This document shows, piece after piece, positions 1-12,464 of a stretch of DNA of 63,026 nucleotides (its first letter is position 1; every line of letters starts with the position of its first letter). The translations under genes and the position numbers were made by a program. Origin of the DNA: Actinomycetes bacterium (lineage in GTDB: Bacteria; Actinomycetota; Acidimicrobiia; Acidimicrobiales; JABEUL01); the NCBI GenBank assembly GCA_021777355.1, contig JAJYDO010000004.1, positions 1 through 63,026 on the forward strand, given 5' to 3'. Below the pieces are notes generated by a model. That model did not search any database, had not been told where the DNA came from, and saw nothing but the letters and a program-made list of their open reading frames with translations.

Positions 1-87
1 AAGGCATTACCACTACGACCACATGACTGGCATGGCGAGTGGAACTACAATATTGGACAAGTGGGGCGACGGAACGTGCCCAAGTAG
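1..87 (+). CDS. possible C-terminal tail of a transposase (partial)
   Basis: An open frame enters from the left edge and encodes 28 residues before a TAG at 85-87. It contains the string HDWHGEWNYNI. From memory this resembles the end of ISAzo13/Rhodopirellula-type DDE transposases, which often finish with a W/F-HGEWNY-I motif. Nothing upstream is visible, so the call rests on this short motif. The frame overlaps the first 49 bases of the methyltransferase gene. That would fit an insertion sequence whose end lies at or inside the 5' part of that gene. Confidence 0.35.
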   Translation, partial: KALPLRPHDWHGEWNYNIGQVGRRNVPK

Positions 88-3000
88 TTCATTCTCGGAG
101 CCTAAGTCTTGTAGGGAAAGACTTAGTCAGCGGTCTAGGTTTTGGAATATCTACAATTTCAGGTCGCTCCAATGTGCTCACTATTGATGGAAGTACTAAA
201 CGTGCTGTAGCGGTATTTCTATACGATGGTGAGACCTTTGAGGATTCACTTGAAAGTTTTAATGGGACCACTGCGGTTTCCCATGCACTTGCAGTTGCCG
301 ACAAAGAAAACCTTCCGTGGGTGGTGCTAACTCGTGGGAGAGAGATCCGACTTTATGCGGCAAAACCTGATGTTGGAGTTGGAAGAAAAGGCCGCTCTGA
401 GACATTTGTCGAGGTCAATTTATCATTACTACCAGATGACAAGGCCGGTTATTTAACCCTCTTATTTGGTGCAAATGCACTCCGTTCCGGGGGGACATTA
501 GAAGAGGTTTTGGAAAGATCAGAGGACTTTTCAGCATCATTAGCCATCAGACTTCGACAGCGAGTTTACTTTGATACAGTTCCGGCTCTAGCGACAGCGA
601 TTGCAAAACGCCTAGATAATACAACGACTTTAAGTGAAAAGGATCTCCAGGCTGCCTACGAGCAAACTTTGGTCATATTATTTAGACTTCTCTTCGTAGC
701 CTACGGTGAAGATCGTGACTTACTCCCATACAGGTCGAACTCCAAATACGCTGATCATTCTCTGAAACGAATTGCGAGACATCTAAGTGATGATCTTCGT
801 AATGACGCAATAAATTTTGACCCAGAGGCATCAGATCTTTGGGAGGATGTGGTCCAACTTTGGGGAGCAGTTGACAAAGGAAACACATCCTGGGGGCTAC
901 CAGCCTACAACGGCGGTTTGTTTTCCGGTGAAGCCGATGTTAATCACTCTGGTGCAGCACTGGCGGGAATAAGGCTACAAGACTCCGAATTTGGGCCTGC
1001 TTTATTAAGTCTTCTAGTCGATGAAGGCCCAGATGGAGTAGTTGGACCTGTAGATTTTAGAAGTCTTTCAGTTAGAGAGTTCGGGACAATATATGAAGGA
1101 CTCCTAGAATCCATGCTATCTGTAGCTCAAAGTGACCTTACAGTGGACAAAAAAGGTGACTATGTTCCTGCTCGCGAAAAGGACACCGTAGAGTATCCAG
1201 CTGGAACTATCTACTTCCACAACCGTTCAGGAGCGAGGAAATCTTCAGGATCTTATTTCACAAAGCCATTCGCAGTTGAACACCTTCTCGACCAAGCATT
1301 AGAGCCAGCGCTTGACAAACATCTTGAGCGCATTTCAGCATTGCTAGATGATGGAGACGATGCAAAAGCAGCTGATTTGTTCTTCGATTTTCGATGCGTT
1401 GATCTGTCGTGTGGATCTGGTCACTTTTTAGTCGCAACTGTTGATCGAATTGAAGCCAGATTTGCCAACTTCTTAAGTATGCACCCGATTCCAGCAGTGA
1501 CTAAAGAGTTAGTTCTCTTAAAAAATGCTGCAAGAGAACATCTTGGAGACTTGGCAGACAGCGTCGAGATTGAAACCACAAGTTTGTTGAGAAGACAGGT
1601 AGCAAGACGCTGTGTTTATGGCGTAGATGCCAATCACATTTCAGTCGAATTGGCTCGATTGGCGATTTGGATTCATACATTTGTCCCTGGACTCCCACTT
1701 TCGTTTTTAGACCATTCCTTGAGGCATGGGGACTCACTAACAGGGATAGGAACACCTGAGGAAGCATTAGATGTTGTTGATCCAAAAGCTAAAAGAAGCA
1801 TTGACGGCTCGCTTTACCGCACTGGTCTCGAAGAGTTCCTTGGCAGAGCCTCTAATTCCCTACGTCGACTAGCGACTATTTCAGAGAGTAGCTCGCAAGA
1901 AATTAAGGAGGCACGAAAAGCTCACCTGGAAGCGCAAGAAGCAGTGAAACCAGCTCGTCAACTCTTTGATTTGATCGTTGCTGCAAGAGTAAATGGACGA
2001 AATAATCTAATAGAGATTTCTGAAGAAAGACTGGCAAATAATATATATCTTTCAGATGCTGAAAAGACCGTGGCAAAGCTCACATCGCTCCATTTCCCTA
2101 TTGCTTTCCCAGAGGTGTTTATTCGCGAAAATCCTGGTTTTGATTGCATATTAGGTAATCCACCCTGGGAAAAGGCGAAAGTAGAGGAGTTAGGATTTTT
2201 CTCTCTCCGATATCCGGGTCTCCGGAGTTTAAATCAGGCGCGTCAACGGGACAGGATAGGCTATTTACGTACTAGCCGGCCCGATCTTGTCATGGAGTAT
2301 GAGGCGGAGGTAAAAATAGCACAATCTGTCAGAAAGCTCCTTCTTGCAGGACCTTACCCAGGGATGGGGCAAGGGGATCCCGATCTGTATAAAGCATTTG
2401 CCTGGCGCTTTTGGAGCTTGATTAGGGAGGGAGGCCATATAGGAGTAGTTCTTCCACGCTCAGCCCTAACTGCCAAAGGGAGTGCTCCCTGGCGCCTGGA
2501 GATTCTCGATCACGGTTGTTTCAAAGATGTCACCATGATCCTTAACAATGCCCAGTGGTTCTTTGAAGATGTGCACCCGCAATATACCATCGGTCTTGTG
2601 ACTATAACTAAAGGTGATGAATTTGTAGGAGATATTGGAATTAGGGGACCCTATAATTCTCTACCTGCATATGAATCAGGCATGAAGATTTCGACGACAG
2701 AATTTAAAGCAAGTGATTTTAAGTCCTGGTCTGAAGGAGCTTCATTCCCACTAATTCCAAGTGACGCTGCCTCTAGAGTGTTTAGAAAGTTGCGTTCACA
2801 CCCACGCCTTGGCAATGGTGGCGATTGGAGTTGCAGACCATATGCTGAATTTCACCCGACTCATGATAAACACCTGTTTGAACTAGATCCAACCGATACA
2901 GCAGGACTCTGGCCTGTATACAAGGGTGCTTCTTTTGATATTTGGGAACCAGATCGGGGATTGTCGCACTATTATGCTTTCGCTGATCCCAAAAAGGTAC

Positions 3001-3638
3001 TGCCCGTTCTTCAGGCGAAGAGGAAAAACAGTGCCAGAGGAAGAAGCGGAGTCTTTTCGGGATTCTCAGCCAGTTTCATAAATGACCCCAATACGTTGCC
3101 GTGCCTGTCACCTCGCATAGCCTTTCGAGATATTACTCGTTCGACGGATACGCGAACTTTGAGAGCTTGCCTAATACGACCCGAGGTTGTGATCACAGGT
3201 AAAGCACCGTACCTATTATGGCCGAAAGGTGATGAGCGAGATCAAGCCTATTTGCTTGGTGTTCTTTGTTCAATGCCGCTCGACTGGTACGGACGATGTG
3301 TTGTGGAGATTGACGTGACCTATTACCTTTTTAATGCTCTCCCTATCCCTCGACCCAGCCGAGACGATCCCATTAAGCGACGAATTGAAATTATTGCAGG
3401 CCGTCTGGCTACCCCAACTGAGGAATTCAGTAATTGGGCAAAAGCCGTAGGAGTTGAAGTTGGATCCGTCACCGATGATGAAAAGCCGGAACTCGAAGCT
3501 GAACTCGAAGCTTTAGTTTCTCGTCTTTATGGCCTAAACGAATCTGACATTAAGGTCATATATGACACGTTTCACGTTGGTGCTGATTATTCAGATAGGT
3601 GTAAATCTGTGCTTAAGTACTTCAGGCTAAATAAGTGA
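39..3638 (+). CDS. Eco57I-like N6-adenine DNA methyltransferase of a restriction/defence system
   Basis: This 1199-residue protein probably methylates adenine in DNA, marking self DNA for the helicase-nuclease encoded next to it. The SAM-binding motif I (DLSCGSGHFL) lies near residue 455 and the catalytic motif IV (NPPW) near residue 707, the order and spacing of large Eco57I/type IIG-like methylases. The long N-terminal part shows no nuclease motif I recognise. The C-terminal half probably holds target recognition. The GTG start at 39 is the first usable start after an in-frame stop at 24-26, so the protein may be N-terminally shortened by an upstream insertion. Its stop overlaps the helicase start (GTGA), implying translational coupling. 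DrmMI of DISARM systems is a similar large methylase, but no drmA or drmB is visible here. Confidence 0.8.
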   Translation: MELQYWTSGATERAQVVHSRSLSLVGKDLVSGLGFGISTISGRSNVLTIDGSTKRAVAVFLYDGETFEDSLESFNGTTAVSHALAVADKENLPWVVLTRGREIRLYAAKPDVGVGRKGRSETFVEVNLSLLPDDKAGYLTLLFGANALRSGGTLEEVLERSEDFSASLAIRLRQRVYFDTVPALATAIAKRLDNTTTLSEKDLQAAYEQTLVILFRLLFVAYGEDRDLLPYRSNSKYADHSLKRIARHLSDDLRNDAINFDPEASDLWEDVVQLWGAVDKGNTSWGLPAYNGGLFSGEADVNHSGAALAGIRLQDSEFGPALLSLLVDEGPDGVVGPVDFRSLSVREFGTIYEGLLESMLSVAQSDLTVDKKGDYVPAREKDTVEYPAGTIYFHNRSGARKSSGSYFTKPFAVEHLLDQALEPALDKHLERISALLDDGDDAKAADLFFDFRCVDLSCGSGHFLVATVDRIEARFANFLSMHPIPAVTKELVLLKNAAREHLGDLADSVEIETTSLLRRQVARRCVYGVDANHISVELARLAIWIHTFVPGLPLSFLDHSLRHGDSLTGIGTPEEALDVVDPKAKRSIDGSLYRTGLEEFLGRASNSLRRLATISESSSQEIKEARKAHLEAQEAVKPARQLFDLIVAARVNGRNNLIEISEERLANNIYLSDAEKTVAKLTSLHFPIAFPEVFIRENPGFDCILGNPPWEKAKVEELGFFSLRYPGLRSLNQARQRDRIGYLRTSRPDLVMEYEAEVKIAQSVRKLLLAGPYPGMGQGDPDLYKAFAWRFWSLIREGGHIGVVLPRSALTAKGSAPWRLEILDHGCFKDVTMILNNAQWFFEDVHPQYTIGLVTITKGDEFVGDIGIRGPYNSLPAYESGMKISTTEFKASDFKSWSEGASFPLIPSDAASRVFRKLRSHPRLGNGGDWSCRPYAEFHPTHDKHLFELDPTDTAGLWPVYKGASFDIWEPDRGLSHYYAFADPKKVLPVLQAKRKNSARGRSGVFSGFSASFINDPNTLPCLSPRIAFRDITRSTDTRTLRACLIRPEVVITGKAPYLLWPKGDERDQAYLLGVLCSMPLDWYGRCVVEIDVTYYLFNALPIPRPSRDDPIKRRIEIIAGRLATPTEEFSNWAKAVGVEVGSVTDDEKPELEAELEALVSRLYGLNESDIKVIYDTFHVGADYSDRCKSVLKYFRLNK

Positions 3639-6600
3639 CACTTGACCCAAAGCCTGATTTTGCTACTAATCGACCTGGAGAGAGGGTCGCTGATGCAATT
3701 GTTGGCTTTCTAGAGGGGCTGCAAGAAAAACTTAGCGTAGCACCACAAGTATTAATTGCTTCAGCGTATTTTAATCCCGCTGGATTTGAATTACTCGCAG
3801 ACTCTTTGGAGAAATGTGGGTCAGTGAAGCTTCTTTTAGGAGCTGAACCCCTAAGGCGTGATAATCATATTCGAAGTCTAAAATCTTCTATTGGTCCAGC
3901 TAGAGCGAGTAGTGAAAGACTTAAAAGTGCACTATCAGACCATACTGCAACTATGGCAGTCGATCGTGACTTACTCGGCTTTACCTTTGAAGCCGATGCT
4001 TCTGCGAGACGACTAGTTAAGTGGTTGGAGTCAGGAAAAGTTGAGGTTCGAAGGCTTGAGAGCTCTTTCTTGCATGGTAAAGCATTCATTGTCACAACTT
4101 ATGACGAGGGGATAATAGCTGGATCATCTAACTTTACCTACGCAGGACTCGCTACAAATGTTGAGTTAAATCTTGGCAATTACGAAGCGCATGTGGTTAG
4201 AAAAGCTGGAGACTGGTTTGACGAACTCTGGGATGAGTCAGTTGAATTTGCTCTAAGTGCAATATATAAAGCCCGCTATGTGGAACACTCGCCATATTTG
4301 ATATTCCTTCGAATGCTTTTTGAGCGCTACGGTGCTGAACTAGAGGAAGAAAGGAATGGAACTGGTGTATCGAAGATCCAGCTCACTACTTTCCAGCGTG
4401 ATGGCCTGTGGAGAGCTAAGAGAATATTAGGAGACTACCATGGCGTAGTTATAGCTGACGAGGTTGGACTTGGAAAGACATATTTGGCGGGAGAGCTAAT
4501 TCGAAAGGCTGTCGAAGAGGACCGGCAAAGGGTACTTCTCATTGCCCCAGCTACTCTTAGGGACGGACCATGGGCCAAGTTCTTTTCAAATCAGCAACTT
4601 GGAGTTGAGAAGATCTCTTTTGAAGAACTTGCAGATGACGTAAATCTTAACCCTGATGCAAGAGGGAGCTATCTCAAGAATAAGCCAAAAGAGTATTCAA
4701 TGATTGTCATTGATGAAGCTCATGCCTTAAGGAACCCTTCAACTCTGAGAGCTAATGCGCTAAGACAGCTTTTATCTGGCTCACCACCTAAAAAAGTAGT
4801 CTTGTTAACTGCAACTCCTGTGAACAATAGTCTTTGGGACCTTTACTGGTTGCTCACTTACTTTATTCGAAACGATGCAGTATTTGCTGACGCTGGAATA
4901 AAGTCCATTAAAGATCACTTTGCAGCTGCTATGGCCATGAATCCTGATGATCTTTCACCTGAGCACCTCTTTGATATATTAGATGCTGTTGCAGTACGGA
5001 GAACTAGAGAGTTTGTAAAAACTCACTATAGGAATGACACAGTTGTAATAGATGGAAACCCAGTACCAATTGTCTTTCCAACTCCAAGAGTCCGCAAAGT
5101 CACTTACGATCTCGATGATGTTCTACCTGGATTCTTTGATCGATTTGCCCATGCATTAGATGGCACTGCAGTAGGTCCTGGGGATCCAACAGTACTTTCA
5201 CTTGCCAGATATTCACCTAGCCAATACCGGTTGGATAATAATTTAGAACCCCATGAAATTCAACTCGCCGGACTTTTGAGATCAGGATTGTTAAAGCGAT
5301 TTGAATCATCAGCTCATAAATTTGCCAGAACTTGTAGGAAAATGGCGGCTAATCACGATGCTTTTCTAACACTTTTGGAACAAGGCAAAGTTGGAAAAGG
5401 TGAAGTACTTGCTGACTGGATTGCAACTGATGCAGACGATGAAGAGGAGATGAACGAGTTTTTGTCTGCTCACGCCCTTGCCTTAGACTCGGCCAGTGAA
5501 TACGATGCCGAGCTACTCTCAGCAAATGCCGCATCGGACCGAGATCTTCTTTTAAGTTTTGCTGGGGTTGCAGAAAGTGTAGAGCCCGCCACAGATCCAA
5601 AGCTTTCCCAGCTAATTGAGGAATTAGCAGAGATTGCACAAGAGGCTAAATCAGAAGGTATCGGAGAGGTAGATGCCCGAGATAAACGCAAAGTACTAGT
5701 ATTTTCCTACTTTGCTGACACGGTGGAGTGGATTGCTAATTTTGTTTTGGAGAAGGTAAATGCAGATCCTCGGTTGGCCGACTTTAAAGGAAGAGTCACA
5801 AGTATCTCAGGTACTGGTGGATCTAAACATGAAGTTCTTTGGGGATTTGCTCCACGGACCACTGAAGCACCACCTGGGGCTGATGAGGATAAATACGACA
5901 TTGTTGTCACAACTGATGTATTAGCTGAAGGCGTGAACTTGCAACAAGCACGCCATATTATTAATTACGACCTTCCATGGAACCCAATGCGCCTGGTACA
6001 GCGTCATGGTCGAATTGACCGAATCGGCTCCAATCATAAGGAAGTATTCCTACGGTGCGTATTTCCAGATGCTCAACTAGATGACCTTCTAGGCTTAGAG
6101 GAACGCCTTCACCGAAAAATTGCTCAAGCTGCTGCTGCAGTTGGAGTGGCAGAAATTCTTCCTGGAAGTCGAGCTAATGAAATAAATCTTGCAGATTCCA
6201 GAGAAGAGATTGAAAGACTGAGACACGAGGACGCATCTTTATTTGAAAAAGGCGGAAGTGGCCGTTCATCGCTATCAGGCGAAGAGTATCGGCAGGAGTT
6301 AAAAACAGCTCTACAACATAGCGATCTGGCAGAAAGTATTCGCCACCTCCCGTGGGGGTCAGGATCCGGAATGGCCATTAGTAACTATGGGGGGGAGCCA
6401 GGGTTTGTCTTCTGTACACGAATTGCAGATCATCCAAGGCCAGTTTTCCGGTTTATCCCTTCATCAAATCTAAGTCAGCCTCCAGTTAGGGATACCCTTA
6501 CCTGCATTGACATGGCTCGACCACGAGATGGATTTGACACGCCAAGAGTATTAGATGACAACACGGCTGAAGGAGCTTACGTGGCCTGGACTCGTGCGGT

Positions 6601-6949
6601 AGATGACATAGTGGAGAAATGGAATGAAGCAGCTGATCCTGCAAATCTTGCCCCATCTATACCACTTGCAATGCATCGAGCCGCTAAATTAGTGCTTGAC
6701 CACCGACCTAATGAAATGACAATTGAGGCCTCCGAGAAACTAATAGATGCTCTTCAGGCTCCTTACCCGGAGCGAATTGTCCGGTTAGTTCGATCGTTAC
6801 TTTCGACGGATGCTGTTCCTGAAGAAATTGTGAGACTAATTGACAAAACGGTCACTGAACTTGGACTCGAACCAAGCCCTCCTCCAACTCCGCTTCCAGA
6901 GATCACATCAGTCGATGTAAATCTTATTTGTTGGACAGCACTCGTTTAA
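3635..6949 (+). CDS. PLD-nuclease/SNF2-family helicase fusion
   Basis: This 1104-residue protein joins a phospholipase D-like domain to a SNF2/DEAD-type helicase. The PLD motif (HGKAF followed by GSSNFT) is near residues 147-165, and only one HxK copy is obvious, so an active site would need dimerisation. The helicase follows: Walker A DEVGLGKT near 275, the Walker B box DEAH near 358, the TATP motif, and a C-terminal helicase lobe ending in HGRIDRIG near 795. The start GTG overlaps the methylase stop by four bases. Family knowledge suggests a DNA translocase that cuts or blocks unmethylated DNA. Class 1 DISARM uses a SNF2 helicase (DrmD) and a separate PLD protein (DrmC); here both functions sit in one chain. 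The exact system type is not certain. Confidence 0.82.
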   Translation: MTLDPKPDFATNRPGERVADAIVGFLEGLQEKLSVAPQVLIASAYFNPAGFELLADSLEKCGSVKLLLGAEPLRRDNHIRSLKSSIGPARASSERLKSALSDHTATMAVDRDLLGFTFEADASARRLVKWLESGKVEVRRLESSFLHGKAFIVTTYDEGIIAGSSNFTYAGLATNVELNLGNYEAHVVRKAGDWFDELWDESVEFALSAIYKARYVEHSPYLIFLRMLFERYGAELEEERNGTGVSKIQLTTFQRDGLWRAKRILGDYHGVVIADEVGLGKTYLAGELIRKAVEEDRQRVLLIAPATLRDGPWAKFFSNQQLGVEKISFEELADDVNLNPDARGSYLKNKPKEYSMIVIDEAHALRNPSTLRANALRQLLSGSPPKKVVLLTATPVNNSLWDLYWLLTYFIRNDAVFADAGIKSIKDHFAAAMAMNPDDLSPEHLFDILDAVAVRRTREFVKTHYRNDTVVIDGNPVPIVFPTPRVRKVTYDLDDVLPGFFDRFAHALDGTAVGPGDPTVLSLARYSPSQYRLDNNLEPHEIQLAGLLRSGLLKRFESSAHKFARTCRKMAANHDAFLTLLEQGKVGKGEVLADWIATDADDEEEMNEFLSAHALALDSASEYDAELLSANAASDRDLLLSFAGVAESVEPATDPKLSQLIEELAEIAQEAKSEGIGEVDARDKRKVLVFSYFADTVEWIANFVLEKVNADPRLADFKGRVTSISGTGGSKHEVLWGFAPRTTEAPPGADEDKYDIVVTTDVLAEGVNLQQARHIINYDLPWNPMRLVQRHGRIDRIGSNHKEVFLRCVFPDAQLDDLLGLEERLHRKIAQAAAAVGVAEILPGSRANEINLADSREEIERLRHEDASLFEKGGSGRSSLSGEEYRQELKTALQHSDLAESIRHLPWGSGSGMAISNYGGEPGFVFCTRIADHPRPVFRFIPSSNLSQPPVRDTLTCIDMARPRDGFDTPRVLDDNTAEGAYVAWTRAVDDIVEKWNEAADPANLAPSIPLAMHRAAKLVLDHRPNEMTIEASEKLIDALQAPYPERIVRLVRSLLSTDAVPEEIVRLIDKTVTELGLEPSPPPTPLPEITSVDVNLICWTALV

Positions 6950-7251: not shown

Positions 7252-8637
7252 TCAGAGCGTGAGCGCTCGGCTAAAAGCAAAAGTCGAGTTTAGATCCCAT
7301 GGAATTACACTGGCTTGAACGTTATCTGCGCACTGAAGGTCGACGCTCACGACAGAAAAGTTAGGGCCATCATGTAGGATGCGAAGCAGGTCTGAAATAA
7401 CTAGTGAGCCAGCAAATGCACCTACAAATGCCGCTCCAACATTTACCCCAGCAATTTCAAGCATCCCACAACGGACAGCATCTTCCTTGCCTCCTTCTCT
7501 AATCAGATTGTCAATCTCATTTTCGTAAGCATTCGACAAGACCGGGGAGGCCAGACTTCTTTCTGGGAAAGCTTCCGCTGGGCCTTGAATCGCAGGAAAG
7601 GTGTGAGTGGTGATACCTAAGTAGTTGGAATATCCTGATCCGAGTCCTCCGTCAACCACTCGCAAGAATCCTCCATTACCCAGGTCTAGACGAGGACTTC
7701 GCTTGTCGAATCCCGAAAGGGCAACTGTCGGTTCATTACGCGTCCTGTCCAAGCGGAATGTGCTGTCGAATGCTCTCTCCACGATCGTTGTTTCGAAGCG
7801 TAGGCTCTCGAGAGCCGACGCCACTACGCGTGTCTTCCGACGATCAATCACGTTATCTGATCCATTAACGAGTAGCTGGGTTGCAATGTTGCCTTTTACA
7901 ACTTTGTCGAAGTCGATAAGTCCAACGTGCGTTTCTTTAGGGTTTTCATATGGCAACATGCCAAGAACCCATGAATACGCTTGCCCAAGATGACCAAGAC
8001 CTAGTAGCCAAATCTTGCTGGGAAGAAACTCTAAAGCAGGGCCAACTGCATTCTCATCGCGCCAGTTGCAAAGAGGATTCCAAAGTGAAATACCGATATC
8101 ACGCCGACTAGCAACTGGCTCACCTAGGGCGTTCTGAAATACTTCCGAGATTCCGAGTGCTCCAGCTGCAACACCAGCTGGCACAATACCGCTATTTTTC
8201 AAGACATGATCAAATTTTTGAACCACACCGCCTGACCAGCCTGAATACGTTATATGAAGGACCGGCTTACCGATGGGATCTTCTGGTCGAGCGACTGCAA
8301 GGGTTGGTTTGTTGGGATTAAGACTTTTGACAACCGTCCCTCCGAAAAGGTTAACCGCATCGGCAACGTTGAGCCCAAATCCCCAAGGAACGCGTAATTG
8401 GACATTCTTGCTAATCGCAACGTTTATTCCACCTAAAAATGCCCTGTGGCCTGCATTTACTATAGTGAGTAGGGCTGCTTGGGCCGCAGTGTCATCACCG
8501 ATGTCGTCACCAACGCTGACTTGGAGGACAAGGGTTTCCAAGAAATTAATAGCCTCGCGAGGACTGTTACAAGCCTTTGAGTCAACTAACAACTTTGCGG
8601 TGCGGTTTATAGTGTCCGGGTTTTCGTTCCAGCTCAT
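7252..8637 (-). CDS. ThiF/E1-like ubiquitin-activating family enzyme
   Basis: A 461-residue E1-like protein, expected to adenylate the C-terminal glycine of the ubiquitin-like partner and to form a thioester with it. The nucleotide-binding motif GLGHLG is near residue 213. The acidic strand LIDFDKVVKGN with a following TQ, near 240, matches the D-x-D...N...Q pattern of ThiF/E1 adenylation domains. A cysteine in RCGML near residue 390 is a candidate thioester residue; the other cysteines sit in less likely contexts. The N-terminal ~200 residues are not a domain I recognise. I chose the ATG at 8637, not a start 51 bases upstream. It has a GGAGGAGG ribosome site six bases before it and overlaps the peptidase stop as ATGA. 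It is the last gene of the four-gene operon. Confidence 0.82.
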   Translation of the reverse strand: MSWNENPDTINRTAKLLVDSKACNSPREAINFLETLVLQVSVGDDIGDDTAAQAALLTIVNAGHRAFLGGINVAISKNVQLRVPWGFGLNVADAVNLFGGTVVKSLNPNKPTLAVARPEDPIGKPVLHITYSGWSGGVVQKFDHVLKNSGIVPAGVAAGALGISEVFQNALGEPVASRRDIGISLWNPLCNWRDENAVGPALEFLPSKIWLLGLGHLGQAYSWVLGMLPYENPKETHVGLIDFDKVVKGNIATQLLVNGSDNVIDRRKTRVVASALESLRFETTIVERAFDSTFRLDRTRNEPTVALSGFDKRSPRLDLGNGGFLRVVDGGLGSGYSNYLGITTHTFPAIQGPAEAFPERSLASPVLSNAYENEIDNLIREGGKEDAVRCGMLEIAGVNVGAAFVGAFAGSLVISDLLRILHDGPNFSVVSVDLQCADNVQASVIPWDLNSTFAFSRALTL

Positions 8638-9125
8638 GGGAACCTCCTCCTTAAAGAAATTCGCTTTTTGGCCTCTCGTCCTGTCCATGAAGTCCAGTTT
8701 CCGCCATCGTAGCGGTGGATGCCCACCTCATATCGAGCGATTGAGTGGCACCCAAGATCTGGCAGAATCAGGGCAATGTGGCCTTTTTGTGCAATCATTG
8801 GATTTGCAGCATCGATAATGCTTTGACGTACCTGGGTGCCAGGATGAGTGTGCACGTCGCCAACGACTTTGCATTTTTCATTTTTGCAAACATCCCAAAG
8901 TTTGCTATAGGCTCGACCGTCAAAATGAATTCCACCTTTCAAACATTTAGGGTCGAGATCATCAAAATATACAACTCTACTTATAAGCCTAGGATCGCCA
9001 TCAATGTTGGCAAGAAGAAAGGCACCTGATTCCTTTATGCAATGACCGCGCGCACCTAGCTCGGCAATCATTGCATCCCAATCAGACAACCTCATCCGAA
9101 TAAGTGATCTTCTTGCTTTAAACAC
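8634..9125 (-). CDS. JAMM/JAB (MPN) metallopeptidase, deubiquitinase-like
   Basis: A 163-residue single-domain zinc peptidase. The JAMM signature is complete: Glu32 in KESG, then H92-x-H94-P followed by S102 and D105 (HTHP...SIID). Members of this family cleave ubiquitin-like proteins from partners or trim their C-termini. Its position between the E2-like and E1-like genes fits removal of the operon's own modifier. The GTG start at 9125 overlaps the E2-like stop by eight bases. An ATG ten codons later is an alternative, and neither has a clear ribosome site. No extra domain or signal peptide is seen, so it should act in the cytoplasm. Confidence 0.88.
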   Translation of the reverse strand: MFKARRSLIRMRLSDWDAMIAELGARGHCIKESGAFLLANIDGDPRLISRVVYFDDLDPKCLKGGIHFDGRAYSKLWDVCKNEKCKVVGDVHTHPGTQVRQSIIDAANPMIAQKGHIALILPDLGCHSIARYEVGIHRYDGGNWTSWTGREAKKRISLRRRFP

Positions 9126-9600
9126 CTATATACTCATCAGAATTCAAAAGTCCATGTAAGTTTTCAAGAATGAAAGTGAGATCTCGGCTGCTATTCCACG
9201 CAAAATGTGGGGCTTCTTGCTGCCAGTTAGGGTGGGCTTGAAGACCCAACCGATCCCATGGAGCGTACATGGCGTTGTCGCCAGCAACCCAACGATCAGC
9301 CCGAAAGACCAGGGCGAGTTTATCGCCCTTTGGTCGTTTATTTTGTGGTAGTGACGTGCCTGCCTCAGCATCCCAAATCCCTCCGGTAGGAGCCACATTC
9401 GGATAACCACTTAACTCGAAACGAACGACAAATTCAGTTGGGGCGCTTCCACGCGGCGCTGCTGAGATTGCGACTAAGGCAAATGGCCATTCTAAAGATA
9501 AAAGACGCCACATACCTGATTCCACACCCGACCGAAAGCCACCTCCAGCAAGGTGACCACGGAGTGTGCGTTCATCGGGAGCCATAGTTATGGCTGTCAT
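9118..9600 (-). CDS. E2-like (UBC-fold) protein without any cysteine
   Basis: A 160-residue protein placed where the E2 conjugating enzyme sits in bacterial ubiquitin-like operons. The middle shows an E2-style strand ending in SGYPNVAPT, similar to the F-x-x-x-YP...P pattern of UBC folds. It is followed by an APWDR...HPNW segment and a C-terminal helix (FILENLHGLLN). The oddity is that the whole chain has no cysteine, so it cannot form the usual thioester. It could be a non-catalytic UEV-like adaptor or could use another residue. It starts with an ATGA overlap on the ubiquitin-like gene's stop. The fold assignment is my inference from motifs and context and needs a profile or structure comparison. 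Confidence 0.65.
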   Translation of the reverse strand: MTAITMAPDERTLRGHLAGGGFRSGVESGMWRLLSLEWPFALVAISAAPRGSAPTEFVVRFELSGYPNVAPTGGIWDAEAGTSLPQNKRPKGDKLALVFRADRWVAGDNAMYAPWDRLGLQAHPNWQQEAPHFAWNSSRDLTFILENLHGLLNSDEYIGV

Positions 9601-10064
9601 CCGGCGAAGCGATCCAGGGGCACGAGATCCAGGCAGACGCTGCAGGTATCTTGATCAATTAGCGATCCGACGTGGATATCACTAGAAAGGAAATAATCAC
9701 TTCCAGGTACGACAAGCCCGTGCTTAGCAATTTGTTCGGTTGATAAGTTGGCTGCGTTCGGTCCCGAAGCCCAGTGATAAACCGTTTTTATTTTAGTTCC
9801 AGGGCCAAATTCGTGTATGAATTCGTCAGAGTTGTAACGAACTTTAACTTCAACATGGTGGCATCGACCTATGTGGATATGGTTATGGTCTCGAATCCCC
9901 GCTTCTTCGATGGTGAGGTCGAGGTCGAGGTCATCGTCAACTTCCTCAATCCAAACCTTTTCGTCCGGATCAGAATCAATTACAAGCTCTCTGACTCTGG
10001 ATGTTGCTTCGACTTCTCTAATAACCGGTTTTTCACTTGAGTAATTGTGTAAAAATAGTTCCAT
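9597..10064 (-). CDS. tandem beta-grasp ubiquitin-like protein (multiubiquitin type)
   Basis: A 155-residue protein that looks like two beta-grasp units in tandem. The first covers about residues 1-68 and ends in the strand HIHIG. The second runs from about 70 to 155, opening with the strand VEVKVRYN and closing with CLDLVPLDRFAG. This resembles the multiubiquitin domain family described by Iyer, Burroughs and Aravind next to E1, E2 and JAB genes. The chain ends in a glycine at the natural stop codon, so a conjugatable C-terminus may need no trimming. It is the first gene of the operon, starts about 50 bases below the shared operator, and overlaps the E2-like gene by four bases. It is the likely modifier. 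Confidence 0.75.
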   Translation of the reverse strand: MELFLHNYSSEKPVIREVEATSRVRELVIDSDPDEKVWIEEVDDDLDLDLTIEEAGIRDHNHIHIGRCHHVEVKVRYNSDEFIHEFGPGTKIKTVYHWASGPNAANLSTEQIAKHGLVVPGSDYFLSSDIHVGSLIDQDTCSVCLDLVPLDRFAG

Positions 10065-10110: not shown

Positions 10111-10166
10111 GGGTATACTTTACCTCTGAGGTATATGATATCATATTTACCTTAGAGGTATATCAT
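10111..10166. promoter_or_regulatory. divergent promoter region with twin palindromic operators
   Basis: The gap between the ubiquitin-like operon and the HigB-like gene has two copies of TTTACCT-n3-AGGTATAT, starting at 10119 and 10146, exactly 27 bases apart. Each core is itself an inverted repeat (ACCTCTGAGGT and ACCTTAGAGGT). Between them is the 14-base palindrome ATATGATATCATAT at 10133-10146. The layout fits cooperative binding of two dimers of a helix-turn-helix repressor controlling both directions. The XRE-ImmA protein encoded at 10479 is the obvious candidate regulator. Confidence 0.7.
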
Positions 10167-10179
10167 TTGGCAAAAAACT

Positions 10180-10482
10180 ATGAAAATAACTTTCTACAGA
10201 GCGGCGCTCGCGTCGTTGTGTAACTCGGAACAGCGCTTGGTTGAACTTTGGGGAAAAGATGATGGGCATATGGTTGGGCGCAGATTGCTAGAGCTTCGTG
10301 CAGTAGATACGGGTAGCATCGAAAATCTCCCGAAAGTGGTTATAAAGAAGGGTAACGGGGGCGATACAACTATAGACTTCGGAGGGAAGATAATAGTCCG
10401 TGGACTAATCACGAGCGCCAACTTGGTGGAAGAAAGTATCTTGATCACTAGTATTGAGGTCAAAGGGAGTGTTCGTAAGTGA
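10180..10482 (+). CDS. HigB/RelE-like toxin component
   Basis: A 100-residue basic protein starting MKITFYRAALASLCNSEQRL. The pattern of an N-terminal strand, a charged helix pair with LCNSE, and an RRLLELRAVDT segment matches HigB/RelE plasmid-maintenance killers, which are mRNA interferases acting at the ribosome. The C-terminal strands (IIVRGLIT, ILITSIEV) fit the fold. The ATG has no clear ribosome site and lies just below the operator, so the transcript may be nearly leaderless. The stop overlaps the next gene by four bases (GTGA), typical of toxin-antitoxin pairs. It could instead be a degenerate toxin kept as a co-regulator. Confidence 0.65.
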   Translation: MKITFYRAALASLCNSEQRLVELWGKDDGHMVGRRLLELRAVDTGSIENLPKVVIKKGNGGDTTIDFGGKIIVRGLITSANLVEESILITSIEVKGSVRK

Positions 10483-12195: not shown

Positions 12196-12243
12196 CTAAT
12201 CCTAGAAAAGGCGACTCAATTCAGTCCTTGGATTGGTCTATTT

Positions 12244-12387: not shown

Positions 12388-12464
12388 TGGTGGGGCTAGC
12401 TGGACTTGAACCAGCGACCTCAGCATTATCAGTGCTGCGCTCTAACCAGCTGAGCTATAGCCCC
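12388..12464 (-). tRNA. tRNA-Ile (GAT)
   Basis: On the minus strand the sequence begins GGGGCTATAGCTCAG, has the anticodon loop CTGATAA (anticodon GAT), the T-arm GGTTCAAGTCC and the acceptor end AGCCCC with discriminator A and an encoded CCA. All four arms pair normally. A tRNA-Ile downstream of gyrA in the same direction is the usual arrangement in many actinobacteria. Confidence 0.97.

Follow-up and report, generated by a model that had tools for sequence, protein, structure and literature searches.

A Bil-type ubiquitin-like conjugation operon whose E2-fold protein has no catalytic cysteine

How might a ubiquitin-like tag reach its target when the E2-fold protein encoded beside it has no cysteine at all? 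This question is raised by an operon in the window, by which we mean the whole 63,026-nucleotide stretch of DNA that we analysed. A first-pass annotation had described four minus-strand genes joined by 4-, 8- and 4-base overlaps, and our examination of the open reading frames agrees with it. All four are present and intact, and the overlaps are 4 bases for bilA/bilB, 8 for bilB/bilC and 4 for bilC/bilD. The features on which the argument turns are as follows:

9597..10064, minus strand: bilA, tandem beta-grasp ubiquitin-like protein of 155 amino acids with Gly at its end
9118..9600, minus strand: bilB, E2-fold protein (DUF7665) of 160 amino acids with zero cysteines
9334..9336, minus strand: bilB codon 89, CGA (Arg), which is Trp in 73/73 Cys-type operons
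9256..9258, minus strand: bilB codon 115, TGG (Trp), at the catalytic cysteine position of our 85-operon survey
8634..9125, minus strand: bilC, JAMM peptidase of 163 amino acids with a GTG start
7252..8637, minus strand: bilD, conjugation-type E1 of 461 amino acids from the ATG at 8637
7468..7470, minus strand: bilD codon of the catalytic Cys390

The ATG of bilD at 8637 is preceded by a strong ribosome site (AAGGAGG), and an alternative, longer ATG frame begins at 8688; numbered from there, the catalytic residue Cys390 becomes Cys407.

The matches of the four proteins to the PADLOC models are far beyond chance, with 133 bits for BilA (2.7e-39, residues 1-155) and nearly full-length matches of 179 bits for BilB (1.1e-53), 181 bits for BilC (2.5e-54) and 447 bits for BilD (1.7e-134). 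The Bil naming rests on the 2023 PADLOC models, a set that may lack Bub models. In Pfam, BilB matched DUF7665 only (3e-39), and the JAMM domain of BilC and the ThiF domain of BilD score below the cut-off. Searches of the PDB with the single sequences gave no useful match for any of the four proteins. Family profiles gave matches for BilA, BilC and BilD, and the BilB profile gave no useful match in the PDB. The BilA profile matches linear poly- and di-ubiquitin chains, in keeping with the tandem beta-grasp protein described before, and the BilC profile matches the solved BilC 8tyx (3.4e-11). BilB had been listed as a possible UBC-fold protein, and its AF2 model (pLDDT 93.6) finds E2 chains, 8tz0_C and 8tyz_C, as its best PDB matches, with the UEV of Vps23 among the Foldseek matches. 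For the AF2 model of BilD (pLDDT 92.5), the best PDB match is 8tyz_A (8e-17), the E1 of a solved bacterial E1-E2-Ubl complex, followed by UBA7; both E1 motifs noted earlier, GLGHLG (213) and LIDFDK (240), were found in BilD.

Because of the PADLOC names and the PDB matches of BilA to BilD, the four-gene operon is, by homology and descent, an operon of Bil (bacterial ISG15-like), a known anti-phage system. It is thus not an unnamed system, since PADLOC identifies all four proteins as BilA-D. Its kinship with the sets described by Iyer, Burroughs and Aravind stands, but the operon is not merely one of these, being a known Bil by homology. Several Bil features are present: homologues of BilA, BilB, BilC and BilD lie together in one operon and in the Bil gene order, BilA is a tandem ubiquitin-like protein with a C-terminal Gly, the E1 has an adenylation site as well as a catalytic cysteine, and the JAMM deconjugase has its full metal site. 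The catalytic cysteine of the E2 is absent, with Trp115 in its place and no other cysteine in BilB, and therefore we file the operon as a Bil homologue and not as a canonical Bil: it is Bil by descent and, judged by its sequence, fails one defining feature.

At the catalytic position, five Cys-bearing plasmid relatives carry the motif LYxPCDRxxxxGHxxW, and the window BilB reads AMYAPWDRLGLQAHPNW. In a survey of 85 operons drawn from genomes, plasmids and one viral contig, this position is Cys in 73, Trp in 7, Phe in 2 and Ala, Ser and Leu in one each. No other BilB column is Cys throughout the 73 Cys-type E2s. The W-x-P aligned by hhalign with human E2s follows this position by 20 residues, compared with 21 in UBE2G2, which agrees with the place of the cysteine in canonical E2s. 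The hhalign scores are weak, cover the C-terminal helix only and support the position only. Conservation and position thus argue that the DUF7665 cysteine is the catalytic residue, and the published catalytic mapping, to Cys138 (PMC11354881), concerns a diverged BilB. Beside the lost cysteine, D116, R117, H123 and W126 are invariant, and dN/dS for BilB is about 0.2-0.4 where dS is unsaturated, which indicates purifying selection. We rejected a sequencing error at Trp115 because the change recurs in diverged species and together with a paired second change. A compensating cysteine elsewhere in the operon was also rejected, none specific to the clade being found in BilA, BilB, BilC or BilD. BilB is therefore unable to carry a thioester, and the loss of its cysteine appears to be a maintained state and not decay.

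In a tree of the E1 proteins, the operons with Trp or Phe in BilB form one clade (support 97/92; 95 in a larger quick tree), which spans Actinomycetota and Chloroflexota and has the Cys-type actinobacterial operons L061 and L071 as its sisters. The members of this W/F clade, nine of them operons with a visible W/F E2, are:

The window
L012/L013, L014, L015, L016 and L018: actinobacterial MAGs
L017: Caldilineaceae, Chloroflexota
L020: Lentzea albidocapillata NRRL B-24057, a cultured isolate, with Phe at the catalytic position
L019: a contig that stops before the E2

The loss of the cysteine goes together with changes elsewhere in the two proteins. BilB residue 89 is Arg in 9/9 W/F types versus Trp in 73/73 Cys types. 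In the E1, the spacing from a Tyr to the catalytic Cys is 19-20 in all eight W/F types measured (19 in the window, Tyr371 to Cys390), as compared with 9-12 in 46 Cys types, so that the W/F-clade E1 carries about eight extra residues immediately N-terminal of its catalytic Cys. Moreover, an E1 Trp found in all 73 Cys types is Phe in eight of nine W/F types. A Bacteroidota operon from Flavipsychrobacter (L060, BilB at 5104-5583) has Leu for Cys together with the same Trp-to-Arg change, and three more operons in its family sample have kept both the Cys and the Trp; this is apparently a separate loss of the E2 cysteine. Two further operons deviate singly. In BilB of the Amnibacterium plasmid operon L008 (2171-5029) the catalytic position is Ala and the whole protein lacks Cys, and the E1 frame of this operon is broken near its N-terminal part. 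BilB of L041 (189-662) has Ser, the near-identical L043 and L044 have Cys, and the Ser probably reflects a recent change or an error.

The remaining parts of the machinery are intact. The catalytic Cys of the E1 is invariant (89/89), as are the terminal Gly of BilA and the JAMM residues E32, H92, H94, S102 and D105 of BilC among relatives; this Gly and the same five residues had already been picked out in the first-pass annotation. The Cys-less operons likewise retain the Cys and adenylation residues of the E1, the Gly of the Ubl and the JAMM residues, all five of them, the exception being one E1 aspartate that is Ala in 1 of the 12. In principle, then, the E1-Ubl-JAMM set could activate a tag, hold it and take it off again. 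The locus had also been read as a self-contained tagging system. The set of Ubl, E2, JAMM and E1 is indeed there, but the usual E1-to-E2 relay cannot be assumed since BilB has no catalytic cysteine, and with the other three parts intact the last step probably runs differently.

Our preferred reading, to which we give somewhat less than an even chance, is that the operon is an anti-phage conjugation operon of the Bil type, belonging to a clade in which BilB has turned non-catalytic and the tag is passed from the E1 to the target. Slightly more tentatively, the E1 may itself also be the ligase, using its own Cys to hand the tag straight to the target, with the former E2 as a non-catalytic specificity or scaffold subunit. 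BilD would adenylate the C-terminal Gly of BilA and hold BilA as a thioester on Cys390. Since BilB cannot take the thioester, the longer Cys segment of the E1 would then pass BilA straight to a target lysine. BilB would remain on the E1 and, much like a UEV, act as a scaffold by which the target is positioned or selected, and BilC would strip BilA from conjugates. Direct transfer from E1 to target is a step that we infer, and we know of no demonstration of it in any Bil system. An anti-phage function of the W/F clade is predicted from Bil homology; in Collimonas, Bil attaches its Ubl to the central tail fibre of the phage (cited in PMC11364771).

Conjugation could instead have been abandoned, with E1, E2 and Ubl in a non-covalent or E1-thioester complex whose role is to sense or block a phage factor, and a BilC that only processes or releases BilA. 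Such a complex would suit both a BilB that cannot form a thioester and an E1 that is altered in the same clade, but neither the E1 Cys nor any of the five JAMM residues varies. Moreover, BilA of the W/F clade already ends in Gly, so that BilC more likely undoes conjugates than processes a precursor; we consider this alternative unlikely. It is less probable still that BilB uses a different nucleophile (Ser, Thr, Tyr or Lys) and forms an oxyester or amide intermediate in an otherwise canonical Bil chemistry. Thr72 and Tyr112 of BilB are highly conserved and might serve, but they are equally conserved in Cys-type E2s, BilB has gained no clade-specific Ser, Thr, Cys or Tyr, and none of the four proteins has the clade-specific Cys that could stand in. 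A Cys-bearing E2 could also be supplied by another host gene, which the incompleteness of the host genomes leaves room for (the window's own genome is 93.6% complete). However, the window's genome and each of seven other W/F genomes hold exactly one DUF7665 gene, which led us to reject a further DUF7665 E2 in the genomes searched, and we regard an E2 in trans as very unlikely. Prok-E2_B and UQ_con gave no match in the window's own genome, a result that carries no information because the controls matched nowhere. The same genome holds a second, ordinary-looking JAB-domain gene that is unlinked to the operon (C76:13329-13667, in the genome labelled L001; 67.8 bits to Prok-JAB).

That the operon is decaying and the loss of Cys marks a dead allele seems most improbable. 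Isolated single changes do occur elsewhere, such as the Ala of L008 with its broken E1 frame and the Ser of L041, but in the W/F clade the four frames are intact across diverged species, Trp or Phe is conserved, the changes are coordinated and selection is purifying. A ThiF-superfamily E1 next to a beta-grasp protein might finally suggest an ordinary cofactor pathway for thiamine, molybdopterin or cysteine, a check that the first-pass annotation had proposed. ThiF/MoeB models reach 13-14 bits against cut-offs of at least 266, the best PDB match of BilD is a conjugating bacterial E1 followed by UBA7, and no cofactor genes adjoin the operon; on these scores, structure matches and neighbours we rejected such a pathway, whose probability we hold to be negligible.

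Turning from the direct hand-over by the E1, which we continue to prefer, to the setting of the operon, the neighbourhood contains the following features:

39-3638, on the contig-end side of the operon: type IIG-like restriction-modification gene
3635-6949, on the contig-end side of the operon: PLD plus SNF2 helicase gene, DrmD-like
10121..10160, no strand: palindrome TACCTNNNAGGTA in two copies around ATATGATATCATAT, within the promoter region that bilA shares with the divergent HTH-M78 pair
10180..10482, plus strand: 100-amino-acid protein, divergent from bilA, with homologues in L012-L015
10479..11549, plus strand: protein with HTH plus M78 (ImmA/IrrE-like) peptidase domains (Pfam HTH_3, Peptidase_M78)
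12388-12464: tRNA-Ile(GAT), adjoining the island

The earlier placement of the operon in a defence island with neither CD-NTase nor RING gene fits these restriction-modification and PLD-SNF2 neighbours, and no CD-NTase or RING gene was found among the neighbours scanned. The genes at 39-3638 and 3635-6949 overlap by 4 bases and make up another defence unit close to the end of the contig. Defence genes also lie near other members of the clade: HsdM in L018, a GmrSD-like gene in L017 and a DinG-like helicase in L015. A same-genus genome is 89% identical to the window across gyrA and the tRNA; at 12240 the two sequences part, the homology ending about 150 bases past tRNA-Ile(GAT). Since the sequence differs past this tRNA, the site is a variable island site adjoining gyrA. 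No BilD was seen in the same-genus genome, an assembly that is 72% complete, and among 397 genomes from the order a full-length BilD occurs in four, one of them the window's; the others were taken as L012, L014 and L071 and added no new operons. Phage records gave no match to BilD. A Cys-type Bil operon occurs on the IMG/VR viral contig L092.

The divergent pair of the 100-amino-acid and HTH-M78 proteins recurs beside the operon within the W/F clade. HTH-M78 homologues are divergent from the operon in L008, L012-L015 and L020, and L018 has an HTH-M78 gene. The HTH-M78 protein is likely a regulator of the operon, or else the antitoxin of the pair; we propose control of the operon because pairs of this type, HTH plus peptidase, govern the response of CBASS and Bub operons to DNA damage (PMC13373217). 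The motif TACCTNNNAGGTA has two matches in the window, a count reached in 0 of 100 shuffles, TTTACCTCTGAGGTAAA lies at the equivalent site in L012, and weaker forms occur in L014 and L020. The paired palindromes at 10121-10160 are likely an operator, through which the HTH-M78 protein would repress the operon until stress or phage relieves the repression. The 100-amino-acid protein had no match in Pfam, PADLOC or NCBIfam and looks HigB-like by eye, and therefore the pair may form a toxin-antitoxin unit, either instead of a regulator or in addition to being one. In the proteobacterial plasmid Bil loci L005, L006, L007, L009 and L011, a large helicase gene lies directly upstream of bilA (UvrD-domain in four, annotated as ATP-dependent helicase in L011), a possible accessory gene. 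The Burkholderia plasmid locus L010 (2374-6956) encodes a diverged BilD-like E1 with BilA, BilB and BilC undetectable, followed by a patatin-like phospholipase gene.

Among bacterial systems, Bil comes nearest to the ubiquitin and ISG15 conjugation of eukaryotes, and the thioester on the E2 is regarded as its core step. That a conserved clade keeps the E1 Cys, the Ubl Gly and the JAMM site without the E2 Cys suggests that the core step is dispensable or can take another route. The W/F clade is a natural experiment on the roles of the E2 fold other than catalysis, and points to a way in which catalytic E2s may become UEV- or RWD-like proteins. If the E1 is indeed the ligase, a three-enzyme tagging system would have given rise to a two-step one, perhaps a second time and independently in Bacteroidota (L060). 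Moreover, database models label such operons Bil and are blind to a cysteine-free E2, which should be kept in mind in annotation.

Several known systems share parts of this arrangement. Type II CBASS (Cap2/Cap3) likewise uses E1/E2 and JAB chemistry in defence, but the operon has a separate Ubl and unfused E1 and E2; we rejected this assignment because neither a CD-NTase nor a fused E1-E2 (Cap2) is present at the locus. For the type 6e operon, Iyer et al. (2006, PMC1779556) predicted an inactive E2-like domain next to a fused JAB-E1. Both possess a tandem Ubl, a JAB, an E1 and an E2-like domain that lacks the conserved Cys, whereas type 6e has a metal-binding protein and the E2 of the window comes from an otherwise Cys-bearing family. 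With its JAMM and E1 encoded by separate genes, the operon was not assigned to type 6e. In the literature that we searched, a set lying outside the main Bil papers, we found no report of a Cys-less E2 clade within Bil. The eukaryotic UEVs Mms2 and Tsg101/Vps23 also keep an E2 fold without catalytic Cys for binding, but those of the Mms2 kind use an active partner E2, and none was found here. The solved complex (8tz0, 8tyz) and BilC (8tyx) provide the top structural or profile matches of BilB, BilD and BilC at about 14-15% identity to the window proteins, and the solved BilB has Cys138 in a CEHH motif (PMC11354881) where the window BilB has Trp115. With Bil BilABCD, the operon shares the four families, their order, the overlapping genes and the defence neighbourhood, as well as the tandem Ubl with terminal Gly, the JAMM peptidase and the E1 with its catalytic Cys. 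The window clade differs from it in an E2 without catalytic Cys, a longer E1 Cys segment and the paired W-to-R change of the E2.
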